64,000 nt of DNA from Spirochaetales bacterium (GTDB lineage Bacteria > Spirochaetota > Leptospiria > Leptospirales > Leptonemataceae): assembly GCA_015075425.1 (NCBI GenBank), contig JABTUL010000002.1, forward strand, positions 992,001-1,056,000, written 5' to 3'. Under the pieces are notes generated by a model. It made no database searches. It had not been told where the DNA came from and worked only from the letters and a program-made list of their open reading frames with translations. A program made the translations under genes and the position numbers. This document shows positions 42,220 to 47,074 of this stretch, one piece after another (position 1 is the stretch's first letter; every line of letters starts with the position of its first letter).

Positions 42220-42654
42220 CTATTCGATTACGTTGCGGGCTTCAAGGCCAAAATTCTCCGCTGCCATCAGCATATTTCGATCATTGGTGTAAATAGTTTT
42301 CAAGCCATTCTTGCGCGCAGTTGCCAGATGGACGGCATCCCCGGCTCGTAGTCGTAAGGTTAGAGGCACAGTCTGGAAGGCGTGCCGCACATCCAGAATG
42401 ATTTCCGGGCTTACGGGAAAGAAATTCCAGACCCCCGAAGCCCGATCGGAATCAAACCATTCGATGACCTGCCCAATCGCGAGATCGGAAAGGCGATTTT
42501 CCTGGCGATGGCGATGCAGGCCGGAGAAGAACTCCGCACATGCCCATTCGGATGACGCAAGCCCTGGAGCTGCCCGGGCCAGGTTGCGAACGGCGGCGGC
42601 CCCCGGCTCGTTCAGATAGCATTTGAGCATGTACGCCGTGTCAAAATAGACCAT
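42220..42654 (-). CDS. PIN-domain toxin, VapC-like
   Basis: 144 residues of a PIN-domain ribonuclease. Acidic residues of the active site are seen in MVYFDTAYMLKCYL (Asp), SSEWACAEFF (Glu), LRAGDAVHLATA (Asp) and YTNDRNML (Asp). Such toxins cut tRNA or rRNA when freed of their antitoxin. ATG 42654 is chosen because it starts the first strand; it overlaps the antitoxin gene by 14 bases. Confidence 0.85.
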   Translation of the reverse strand: MVYFDTAYMLKCYLNEPGAAAVRNLARAAPGLASSEWACAEFFSGLHRHRQENRLSDLAIGQVIEWFDSDRASGVWNFFPVSPEIILDVRHAFQTVPLTLRLRAGDAVHLATARKNGLKTIYTNDRNMLMAAENFGLEARNVIE

Positions 42655-42874
42655 CTCGGTCTTTCCTGACGAGATCAACTGAATCCATTGGAATCGGAGG
42701 CAAGCCCAGAATTTCAAGCTCCCGGTCCGGCAGTCCTGCCCCGGAAGGGGGTACGTAATGCCGTAAAACGGCAACCGGGCGGCCACGGTCCAGGATCAGG
42801 AGCCCTTCAGCACCTGCGCTCCGGACCAGCGCGCCCGTCCGGGCGTGCAACTCCCTGATCGTTATGCTTTTCAT
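42641..42874 (-). CDS. Antitoxin, Phd/VapB-like
   Basis: 77 residues. The N-terminus MKSITIRELHARTGALVRSA is the DNA-binding fold of Phd/YefM-type antitoxins; ILDRGRPVAVLRHYVPP follows as in the family, and the tail should wrap the toxin. It is the first gene of the pair, overlapping the toxin by 14 bases, the usual toxin-antitoxin arrangement. An inverted repeat overlaps its start and probably serves autorepression. Confidence 0.82.
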   Translation of the reverse strand: MKSITIRELHARTGALVRSAGAEGLLILDRGRPVAVLRHYVPPSGAGLPDRELEILGLPPIPMDSVDLVRKDRDGLF

Positions 42875-43469: not shown

Positions 43470-43817
43470 TCAGGGGGTTTTGATTCCGGCGCGAAGCAGG
43501 GCCTCTGCCTCTGTTTTGCAGATGTCAAACATATCCGTCAGACGGGCCAAGTCGAGGACGTATTCCGTAACCGGTGAGATATCCGCCAGCAACAATTGCC
43601 GGCCCTTAATTTCGCAATCCCTTTTGATTTGCAGCAGTTTGCCAATGCCGCTGGAGCTTATATCCGTTACGTCTGCCATTTGTAAGATGAAGGTTCTGAC
43701 CGCCGGCCGGCTCTGTTCTTCAATGCTTTTACCAAGCCAGGGGATCTCTTCCAGGGTAAGCCGACCGGACAGTCGCAGGACAACAGCCGAACCGTTCTCC
43801 GTTACCTTGATTCGCAT
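43470..43817 (-). CDS. STAS-domain anti-sigma factor antagonist
   Basis: 115 residues from ATG 43817 (an ATG at 43883 is possible). The STAS fold is shown by VVLRLSGRLTLEEIPWL and the phosphosite region VTDISSSGIGKLLQI. It resembles SpoIIAA-type antagonists that are switched by a kinase and a SpoIIE phosphatase. It is divergent, 87 bases away, from the hybrid kinase with a SpoIIE domain, and may be its target; this is inference. Confidence 0.82.
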   Translation of the reverse strand: MRIKVTENGSAVVLRLSGRLTLEEIPWLGKSIEEQSRPAVRTFILQMADVTDISSSGIGKLLQIKRDCEIKGRQLLLADISPVTEYVLDLARLTDMFDICKTEAEALLRAGIKTP

Positions 43818-43904
43818 GAAGCGGATTTTTTGTTCGGGTATGTGTAGACAACCGTAAAACGATTTTCTTTTGACATCCCGCATCCCAGGACCTTCAGTGA
43901 GTTC

Positions 43905-46628
43905 ATGGTCCGGATACCGGGATGCTCCTGCCTTGCCGGCCTTCTTTTCCTATCCGGCCTATCCGGCCTGTCCGCCGAAGTCGTCTGGCTTGATAGCAGC
44001 CGGGCAGAGGTTCACGCTCTCGAGATCCTCGAAGATCCGGAGGGGAGCCTGTCCTATGAACAGGTGCAGACCATGCCCTTTGTCCGGACGTCAGGCCGCC
44101 ATCTCAATCGCGGATTTCGAGCGACCACCGTCTGGGTTCGCATTCAAGCCGGCAATCGCAGTCAGGCCGGTGAATGGTTGCTTGAACTTGCCCACCCCAT
44201 CACCGATTCCATTCAAGCCTATCTGCCTGCTCTCGATGGCAAAGTAGAGCTACGAACTGCCGGTGACACACTGAAGTTCGCTGAGCGGGAATTAGCTCAT
44301 CGTAATTTTTTCTTTCGTATGCGCCTGCCTGCTGAAGCGATTACGCCACTTTATTTAAGAATTCAAACGCAGGATGCTCTGGTTTTGAAATTTAAAATCT
44401 GGAAGGCGGACGCACTTCTGGAACAATCCACCGCAGAACAGGCAAGCTCCGGTCTTTACTATGGGATTATGCTGGCCATGATTCTGTACAATGGCTTTCT
44501 TTTCCTTTCCCTTCATGAGCGAACTTATCTTTACTATGTTTTATATATTATATGTTTCTCTATTTTGATGCTCTGCCACCAGGGGTTTGGCTACCAGTTT
44601 CTCTGGCCGGATTATCCCTGGTGGCAACAGAAGAGCATTCCTGTTTTTACCGCCAGCGCAGCCTTTCTTTTAGGGCTATTCATGCGCGGTTTTCTGGATG
44701 TTCCCGGTCAGCTACCACGCTTTGACAAAGTACTGCGAATCATTATCGCCATATTTGCTGTTATAGTGCCGGCCAGCCTTTTTTTATCAGTCGTTGATTC
44801 CGCGCGACTTGTCATCAGCGTTGGTCTTTTTGCTGTTGTCTTGAGTCTCCTGATGGGCGTTTTTCTCCTGCGGCGTGGCAATCGGCCGGCCCGATTTTTC
44901 TACCTGGCTTTTTTTGTTTTTTTCATCGGTGTTGTGCTCTTTAATCTAACGGCTATCGGCCTTTTGCCGGCGAACCCCTGGACAGAATCGTCAATGCGGA
45001 TCGGCTCAGCTGTAGAAGTGGTGCTTTTGTCTCTCGGGCTGGGGGACCGGATCAATACCACTCAGGCCCGGGTTATCGCCGCTCAAAATCAAGCTGTTGC
45101 AGATCTGAAGCGTATTGATACAATCAAAGATGAGTTCCTGGCCAATACTTCGCATGAATTGCGCACGCCGCTGCACGGAATCATCGGTATAACGGAATCA
45201 TTGCTGGCCCGCGGGCAGCTTCCGGAAAAGGCCCGGTTGGACCTGGAGCTGGTCGCTGCCAGCGGTCGCCGGCTGGCAAGCCTGGTTGGCGATATCCTGG
45301 ATTTTTCACGTTTGCGGAATGCGGACCTGACCCTTCAGTTACGTCCGGTCGCCCTGTCCTCTGTTGTTCATGCAGTGATAACCGTGTGTAAACATATTTC
45401 TCAGGATGGAAAAGTCAAACTCACGGCAGGACCGCTGGACGTGCCTCCGGTGCTGGCCGATGAAAGTCGTTTGCAACAGATTTTACACAATCTGATTGGC
45501 AATGCTCTCAAGTTTACGCGTCAGGGTCAGGTGACGGTCAGCGCAGAAGAAAAAAGTCCTGGCCGGGTGCAAATTTCCATTCGCGATACGGGCATTGGCA
45601 TTCCCCGGGAGAAGCAGGAGCTGATTTTTCAATCCTTCACTCAGGCGGATGGCTCCATATCCAGGGAGTACGGGGGAACGGGCCTTGGACTATCCATCAG
45701 CCGGACTCTGGTTGAATTGCATGGCGGGACGCTGGAGGTGGATTCAGAGCCAGGTAAAGGATCCTGTTTTTTCTTCACCCTTCCTCTTGCCCCGGAAAAG
45801 GCCGGGGAGGAGCCGAAAGTATCTGCTCCGGGTGCTACTGTTTTACCTGCCGTGTTGTCCGCTCACCCTTTGCCAGGCGCAGAAGAAATCGGTCTGCTCC
45901 AGCAATCGGAAAAGGAAAAGGATAGCATTGCAGATCCTGGTGGCCGCGGAGAGCGAATCCTTATTGTGGACGATGATCCGGTCAATTTGCGCGTTTTACA
46001 GAATCACTTATCTTTAAGAAACTATATTGTTGATGCTGCTCTCTCCGGTCGCGCAGCCCTGGAGCTGATGGAAAAAGTAAGTTATGATCTCCTGCTTATG
46101 GACGTTATGATGCCAGGGCTTTCCGGCTATGAAGTGTGCCGATTGCTCCGCGAAAGCAGCTCGCCATCCGAATTGCCGGTGATCCTGCTCACGGCCCGCA
46201 ACAGGATTGAAGATATGCTGGCCGGCCTCGAAAGCGGGGCCAATGATTTTCTGGTGAAACCTTTCGACGCCAGAGAATTGCTCGCTCGAGTAGACACACA
46301 GCTGAATCTGAAATCCTCTGCCCGTGCGCAGGCTGAACTCAGTGGCATGCAAATGGGACTCGAACTGGCAAGGTCCATTCAGCAAAGTCTTTTGCCTCAT
46401 TCCATTCCGGTGGTCCCGGGATTGCACATTGCTGCCAGCTACAGATCTATGGAGCAGGTAGGCGGTGATTTTTACGATTTTCAGGTGATTCCCGACGGGC
46501 TTGCCGTTATCATAGCCGATGTTTCTGGACATGGAGTACCGGCGGCTTTGATCGTTTCCATGTTGAAACTGGCCTTTGCCTACCAGAAGGGAGTTTTAAG
46601 CGACCCCCTGCCGTCCTTTCTGGAATGA
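43905..46628 (+). CDS. Hybrid 7TMR-DISM histidine kinase with receiver and first half of SpoIIE domain
   Basis: 907 residues: signal peptide, DISMED2-like domain (about 25-175), seven helices (about 180-380), HisKA with SHELRTPLHG (His near 415), ATPase domain (IGNALKF, DTGIGIP, GGTGLGLSI), receiver domain (LIVDDDPVN, LLLMDVMMPG, FLVKPFD; about 684-800) and the start of a SpoIIE phosphatase (GGDFYDF, IADVSGHGVPAA). The frame ends in PSFLE, TGA 46626-46628, in the middle of the phosphatase domain. The rest of the domain is in the next frame. Kinase and receiver should be intact; the phosphatase lacks two of its metal Asp residues. Confidence 0.87.
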   Translation: MVRIPGCSCLAGLLFLSGLSGLSAEVVWLDSSRAEVHALEILEDPEGSLSYEQVQTMPFVRTSGRHLNRGFRATTVWVRIQAGNRSQAGEWLLELAHPITDSIQAYLPALDGKVELRTAGDTLKFAERELAHRNFFFRMRLPAEAITPLYLRIQTQDALVLKFKIWKADALLEQSTAEQASSGLYYGIMLAMILYNGFLFLSLHERTYLYYVLYIICFSILMLCHQGFGYQFLWPDYPWWQQKSIPVFTASAAFLLGLFMRGFLDVPGQLPRFDKVLRIIIAIFAVIVPASLFLSVVDSARLVISVGLFAVVLSLLMGVFLLRRGNRPARFFYLAFFVFFIGVVLFNLTAIGLLPANPWTESSMRIGSAVEVVLLSLGLGDRINTTQARVIAAQNQAVADLKRIDTIKDEFLANTSHELRTPLHGIIGITESLLARGQLPEKARLDLELVAASGRRLASLVGDILDFSRLRNADLTLQLRPVALSSVVHAVITVCKHISQDGKVKLTAGPLDVPPVLADESRLQQILHNLIGNALKFTRQGQVTVSAEEKSPGRVQISIRDTGIGIPREKQELIFQSFTQADGSISREYGGTGLGLSISRTLVELHGGTLEVDSEPGKGSCFFFTLPLAPEKAGEEPKVSAPGATVLPAVLSAHPLPGAEEIGLLQQSEKEKDSIADPGGRGERILIVDDDPVNLRVLQNHLSLRNYIVDAALSGRAALELMEKVSYDLLLMDVMMPGLSGYEVCRLLRESSSPSELPVILLTARNRIEDMLAGLESGANDFLVKPFDARELLARVDTQLNLKSSARAQAELSGMQMGLELARSIQQSLLPHSIPVVPGLHIAASYRSMEQVGGDFYDFQVIPDGLAVIIADVSGHGVPAALIVSMLKLAFAYQKGVLSDPLPSFLE

Positions 46629-47074
46629 ACGATGTTCTTTATGGTAACACGGGACATGAATTTGCGACAGCCTGCTATGCTTATATTGATACAGAATCGC
46701 TCTGCCTGCGTATTGGCAGCGCGGGGCATCCACCTGCCCTGGTCTGGAAAGCAAGCAGTAAAACTATGTTAAGCATAAGACCTTCCGGTCGTTTGCTGGG
46801 AATCTTTCCGGATCCGCAGTTTCAGTTCGAGGAAATCTTTCTGGAAAGCGGAGACCGCGTCGTTCTTTATACCGATGGAGTTGTGGAAGCGCATCCGCGC
46901 GATAGGGATACAGATTTTTTTGGCGAGGAGAGGCTCCGGAATTTGATTGCAGCGAATGCCACGGCCGTTGCCTCCGCGTTAAAAGATGCGATACTGACGG
47001 ATCTGAATGAATGGACAGGTGGCCCCGAATACTGCCAGGATGATGTTGCTCTGGTTGTTTTGGAAATAAATTAG
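46625..47074 (+). CDS. Second half of the SpoIIE phosphatase domain (frame -1)
   Basis: 149 residues starting at an ATG that overlaps the stop of the kinase gene (ATGA). The sequence continues the SpoIIE fold exactly where the first frame ends: MNDVLYGNTGHEFATACYAY, GSAGHPPALVW, LYTDGVVEAHP with one metal Asp and YCQDDVALVVLEI with the last. A -1 shift after GAA 46623-46625 would read straight through. Possible readings are a one-base deletion, programmed frameshifting, or two coupled polypeptides that reassemble. No promoter of its own is seen. Confidence 0.82.
   Translation: MNDVLYGNTGHEFATACYAYIDTESLCLRIGSAGHPPALVWKASSKTMLSIRPSGRLLGIFPDPQFQFEEIFLESGDRVVLYTDGVVEAHPRDRDTDFFGEERLRNLIAANATAVASALKDAILTDLNEWTGGPEYCQDDVALVVLEIN

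Follow-up and report, generated by a model that had tools for sequence, protein, structure and literature searches.

We found that positions 43905-47074 of the window (the whole 64,000-nt stretch analysed) very probably hold a single gene that has recently lost one base, true mutation and assembly or sequencing error being counted together, and whose frame is now broken within a C-terminal SpoIIE phosphatase domain. In annotation, the segment is best entered as one interrupted gene in place of two. The original prediction had the kinase frame stopping in the middle of a SpoIIE domain, after the metal-binding motifs GGDFYDF and ADVSGHG, and placed the remaining two motifs, LYTDGVVEA and QDDVALVV, in a -1 frame ORF opening at ATG 46625; the ORF listing and the Pfam searches bore out both statements, together with its domain order and its two-plus-two assignment of the motifs to ORF1 and ORF2 (Table 1). 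The two ORFs overlap in the four bases ATGA (46625-46628; ORF listing). The hybrid histidine kinase part is complete in ORF1, in which HisKA (65 bits), HATPase_c (119 bits), and Response_reg (107 bits) match near full-length profiles. At this locus, no single protein contains an uninterrupted SpoIIE domain (PF07228) with its four metal-binding Asp motifs, each frame being partial, and only ~7 profile positions separate the SpoIIE matches of the two frames, the profile being otherwise continuous. Read from its upstream stop, the -1 frame matches SpoIIE positions 39-191 (Pfam), a match that begins before ATG 46625, and it is conserved from about 46601. Reading through both frames gives one complete SpoIIE domain that is gapless against relatives at the junction. 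All other SpoIIE copies in the 4.13-Mb genome are in one frame each (33 of 33; whole-genome SpoIIE search).

Table 1. Features of the frame-broken kinase locus, its neighbourhood, and the kinases of similar design elsewhere in the genome
Feature	Position	Strand	Description	Basis
Divergent STAS-domain gene	43470-43883	-	Anti-sigma-factor-antagonist type; PF01740, 58 bits	Pfam
ORF1	43905-46628	+	907 aa; stop TGA 46626-46628	ORF listing
ORF1 domains		+	7TMR-DISMED2, 7TMR-DISM_7TM, HisKA, HATPase_c, Response_reg, SpoIIE positions 3-30	Pfam hmmscan
Best-fitting interval for the -1 change	46586-46610	+	One base missing	HMM score, all junctions
AGGGAG	46588-46593	+	Shine-Dalgarno-like; separated from the C5 run by exactly 10 nt; probably chance	Sequence
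C5 run	46604-46608	+	Frame 0 GAC CCC CTG; longest homopolymer of the plateau, likeliest point of loss	
ORF2 (ATG ORF)	46625-47074	+	149 aa, -1 frame; SpoIIE 47-191, C-terminal part	Pfam
7TMR-HK-REC-SpoIIE paralog (L085/L086)	C1:2197168-2199916		One base missing inside REC; junction 2199276-2199282	
HAMP-HK-REC-guanylate-cyclase (L178)	C2:552190-555605		One base missing in REC; junction about 554694-554715	
HAMP-HK-REC-cyclase (L257), intact sister	C4:190-193 kb		Frame unbroken	

The relatives found for comparison all come from other genera, the closest of them from other genera of the same family (~45% identity), and have the region in one frame. These single-frame proteins of the same class, with a 7TMR-DISM sensor and a SpoIIE/PP2C output, have the domain order and the four phosphatase motifs in common with the locus; in contrast to such 7TMR-DISM/SpoIIE hybrid kinases, the frame here is broken within SpoIIE. 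Literature searches covering 7TMR-DISM/SpoIIE kinases and hybrid kinases with frameshifts yielded nothing specific.

We further scored every possible -1 junction in the open-frame overlap against an HMM of 32 single-frame relatives spanning the region. Read-through reached 465 bits, compared with 298 and 154 bits for the separate frames, and the junction scores formed a plateau of 464-465 bits at the best-fitting interval, with 457.7 bits at 46625. The claim that a -1 shift would join the halves holds as far as the complete, gapless domain is concerned, but the site originally given for it, after GAA at 46625, lies ~7 bits below the plateau. The read-through YQKGVLSDPPAVLSGMNDVLYGNTG shows no gap near the junction against 20 relatives and keeps the family pattern DP..LL..MN..L.GN. 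ATG 46625 is the codon for the conserved Met of the 'MN' in this pattern, which makes the ATGA incidental. By the junction scores, the frame changes upstream of the ATGA, with the C5 run as the likeliest point.

Under the favoured reading, a single gene would encode a membrane hybrid histidine kinase (7TMR-DISM, HisKA, HATPase, and REC) with a C-terminal SpoIIE/PP2C-type phosphatase output, and one base would have been lost within the plateau, most likely in the C run. Translation would then stop a few codons further on, at TGA 46626, so that the product would comprise kinase and REC but lack a functional phosphatase, and the downstream remainder of the phosphatase would not be expected to be translated. 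If the sequence is correct, the product in the cell is a membrane hybrid kinase in which HK and REC are complete and the phosphatase is absent. The loss would be recent, since conservation extends in both halves right to the junction; homology (single-frame relatives, conservation on both sides) favours the fresh one-base deletion that was among the options first put forward, and it does so for mutation and error alike.

Within a one-base loss we lean slightly towards a true mutation, at about an even level of confidence, because the breaks cluster in a few kinases of this design and are not scattered, and because homopolymer lengths are normal. A sequencing or assembly error, in which case the real genome would be one base longer here and have a single open frame, takes the smaller share of the favoured reading and is a serious possibility that falls short of even. 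Its likely point is a short homopolymer flanked by two conserved halves, and the three breaks that we found in the genome are all one-base losses. It also has general experience on its side: in the GeneTack survey (Antonov et al. 2013), unclustered, homology-confirmed frame breaks were mainly sequencing errors with some indels, and most homology-confirmed singleton breaks are expected to be errors (PMC3711429). Our locus resembles the singleton frame-disrupted genes of that survey in having a homology-validated break in one genome at a site that is not conserved; it differs in that, of four readable proteins sharing one design, three are affected here, with few signs of breaks elsewhere. Against an error also stand the confinement of the three breaks to a small class of genes (a chance of about 1e-3 when the wider signalling class is taken), the lack of an obvious long homopolymer at two of the three, and the homopolymer lengths, which look normal. 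In the genome, homopolymers of up to 8 occur at normal or higher frequency, which indicates that runs are not generally under-called.

The extent of frame breakage was surveyed in the assembly (4.13 Mb, 4 contigs, 96% complete) by searching 1.26 of the 4.13 Mb with proteins of relatives, of which ~515 kb was covered by homology, and by whole-genome Pfam searches. Planted one-base deletions were recovered at a rate of 55% overall (signalling genes 61%, all others 51%). Beyond the three kinases, no frame break was accepted in the ~515 kb of homology-covered DNA at this sensitivity of 51-61%, and this absence of further breaks at roughly 50% sensitivity is a further point against an error. Likewise, ~600 kb from three relatives gave no accepted break; the few candidates there, judged from match rows and not individually, scored weakly or were of the type seen at kinase/response-regulator boundaries. 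The whole-genome Pfam searches gave no evident frame-split domain for ACR_tran, HATPase_c, ABC_tran, or 7TMR-DISM_7TM. Three breaks placed at random would all hit the wider signalling class with a probability of about 1.2e-3, for a class chosen after the data had been seen. Three candidate breaks were rejected: that at C1:1746257 proved to be the end of an NtrY-like kinase followed by the start of an NtrX-like regulator, and those at C2:480.8 kb and C2:908.7 kb were matches of antisense shadow ORFs. The genome as a whole carries many SpoIIE phosphatases and 7TMR-DISM receptors, with 34 and about 30 copies, respectively.

Taken alone, the locus would be an ordinary frame-broken gene, and it gains some interest from the two other kinases of the same design that are broken likewise in this genome (Table 1). 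Among the HK-REC-output kinases, three of the four readable ones are broken, with one base missing in each; this readable set leaves out a possible HK-REC protein at C1:128 kb (1034 aa), the end of which was not read. Whole-genome Pfam searches found 2 of ~46 REC domains split, both of them in the sister kinases. The junction at C2:554.7 kb is less well placed, as the profile of the preceding kinase was used and no relative spans the whole stretch. In the C1:2199 kb paralog, the best junction is preceded, at a distance of a little over 20 nt, by the heptamer T_TTT_TTA; this was rejected as a programmed site because frame 0 is still REC-like beyond the heptamer and junctions further downstream gain as much as 10 bits. 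The clustering of the breaks, recognised post hoc and resting on three events, suggests recurrent loss in the HK-REC-output class. A lineage that is uncoupling its HK-REC-output kinases from their outputs, with independent recent one-base losses in the REC or output domain of three of the four readable proteins, is an unlikely but not negligible extension of this pattern. If it holds, it would mean either that loss of output is selected for or that these kinases share a low-level recoding mechanism by which breaks are tolerated; and if the breaks are real, they would form a small case of parallel output loss in a signalling family. Elsewhere in the genome, we noticed a response-regulator remnant (C2:632056-632253; L182) whose REC ends at profile position 67; judged by eye, what follows REC seems to have decayed in several frames, and a Uma2-like gene comes next.

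Readings in which the two-frame arrangement is functional came out far behind a one-base loss. The proposal of a programmed frameshift that sets the ratio of kinase forms fared poorly, and we regard a programmed -1 ribosomal frameshift at the C run, yielding kinase with and without phosphatase, as very improbable. It would explain why the -1 frame runs exactly into the phosphatase, and AGGGAG offers a Shine-Dalgarno (SD)-like stimulator 10 nt before the C5 run, at an unusual spacing that fits stimulated -1 frameshifting: among the 231 C5 runs lying in phase within the open frames sampled, the exact arrangement AGGGAG-N10-C5 occurred once, and an SD-like hexamer stood 7-20 nt upstream of two. 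In the dnaX gene of Escherichia coli, an SD stimulator 10 nt upstream acts together with the slippery motif A_AAA_AAG and a stem-loop. The likeness to dnaX-type -1 frameshifting lies in AGGGAG preceding a homopolymer run by 10 nt; the locus differs in having a weak C_CCC in place of A_AAA_AAG, no stem-loop, and no conservation. Indeed, the run provides only C_CCC and no efficient motif (X_XXZ_ZZN, or an A_AAG/U_UUY tetramer), and after a slip the following CTG codon would be unable to re-pair. In E. coli, C_CC.C shifts near background without stimulators and at a low level even with the IS3 pseudoknot (Sharma et al., PMC4066793). Moreover, no stimulatory structure is predicted in the 100 nt from the C run onward (z +1.05), the two sister breaks have neither motif nor position in common with this site, and the relatives from other genera are in one frame, so there is no conserved frameshift site.

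A phase-variable switch, in which the length of the C run would flip by slipped-strand mispairing and turn the phosphatase on and off within a population, appears just as improbable. The likely junction is a homopolymer and poly-C tracts are known sites of phase variation (PMC3711429), but a run of five C would be a short contingency tract, and the broken sister kinases have no comparable tract at their junctions. Least likely of all is the two-subunit phosphatase that had also been suggested, in which coupled re-initiation at the ATGA would produce the ORF2 protein as a complement to the N-terminal part in ORF1: the stop/start overlap is present, but ATG 46625 is preceded by no SD-like pairing (+1.2 kcal/mol, compared with -3 to -7 in four of five other presumed starts), ORF2 has no complete domain and starts inside SpoIIE, the relatives are fused, the overlap is not conserved, and the -1 frame is already conserved upstream of the ATG, so that coding sequence would be wasted under coupling. 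We therefore rejected ATGA coupling as the mechanism, on the missing SD and the coding sequence upstream, and rank the split enzyme below the programmed shift because the split cuts the PP2C-type fold between its metal-binding motifs and leaves ORF2 with half of it.

With the interrupted single gene as the preferred reading, the neighbourhood offers clues to the function of the intact protein, in which REC would gate the phosphatase. STAS antagonists are the usual substrate class of SpoIIE/PP2C phosphatases, and a gene of this type lies divergently beside the kinase (Table 1). Judging from architecture and neighbourhood, this phosphatase probably acted on a STAS antagonist in its phosphorylated form, for which the divergent gene product is a candidate, and the presence of this neighbour suggests that the intact kinase-phosphatase fed a partner-switch pathway. 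No STAS gene was found beside the kinases of relatives within flanks of ~1.5 kb. HsbR/HsbA is a partner switch in which a PP2C-type phosphatase under REC control acts on a STAS antagonist. Our locus is similar in combining a REC-controlled PP2C-type phosphatase with an adjoining STAS gene, whereas here the phosphatase is fused to a membrane histidine kinase and the proposed link to the STAS gene is drawn from the arrangement. In the same part of the window, two adjacent small ORFs on the - strand (42220-42874) resemble by eye a toxin-antitoxin pair, consisting of a PIN-like protein and a prevent-host-death-type antitoxin.
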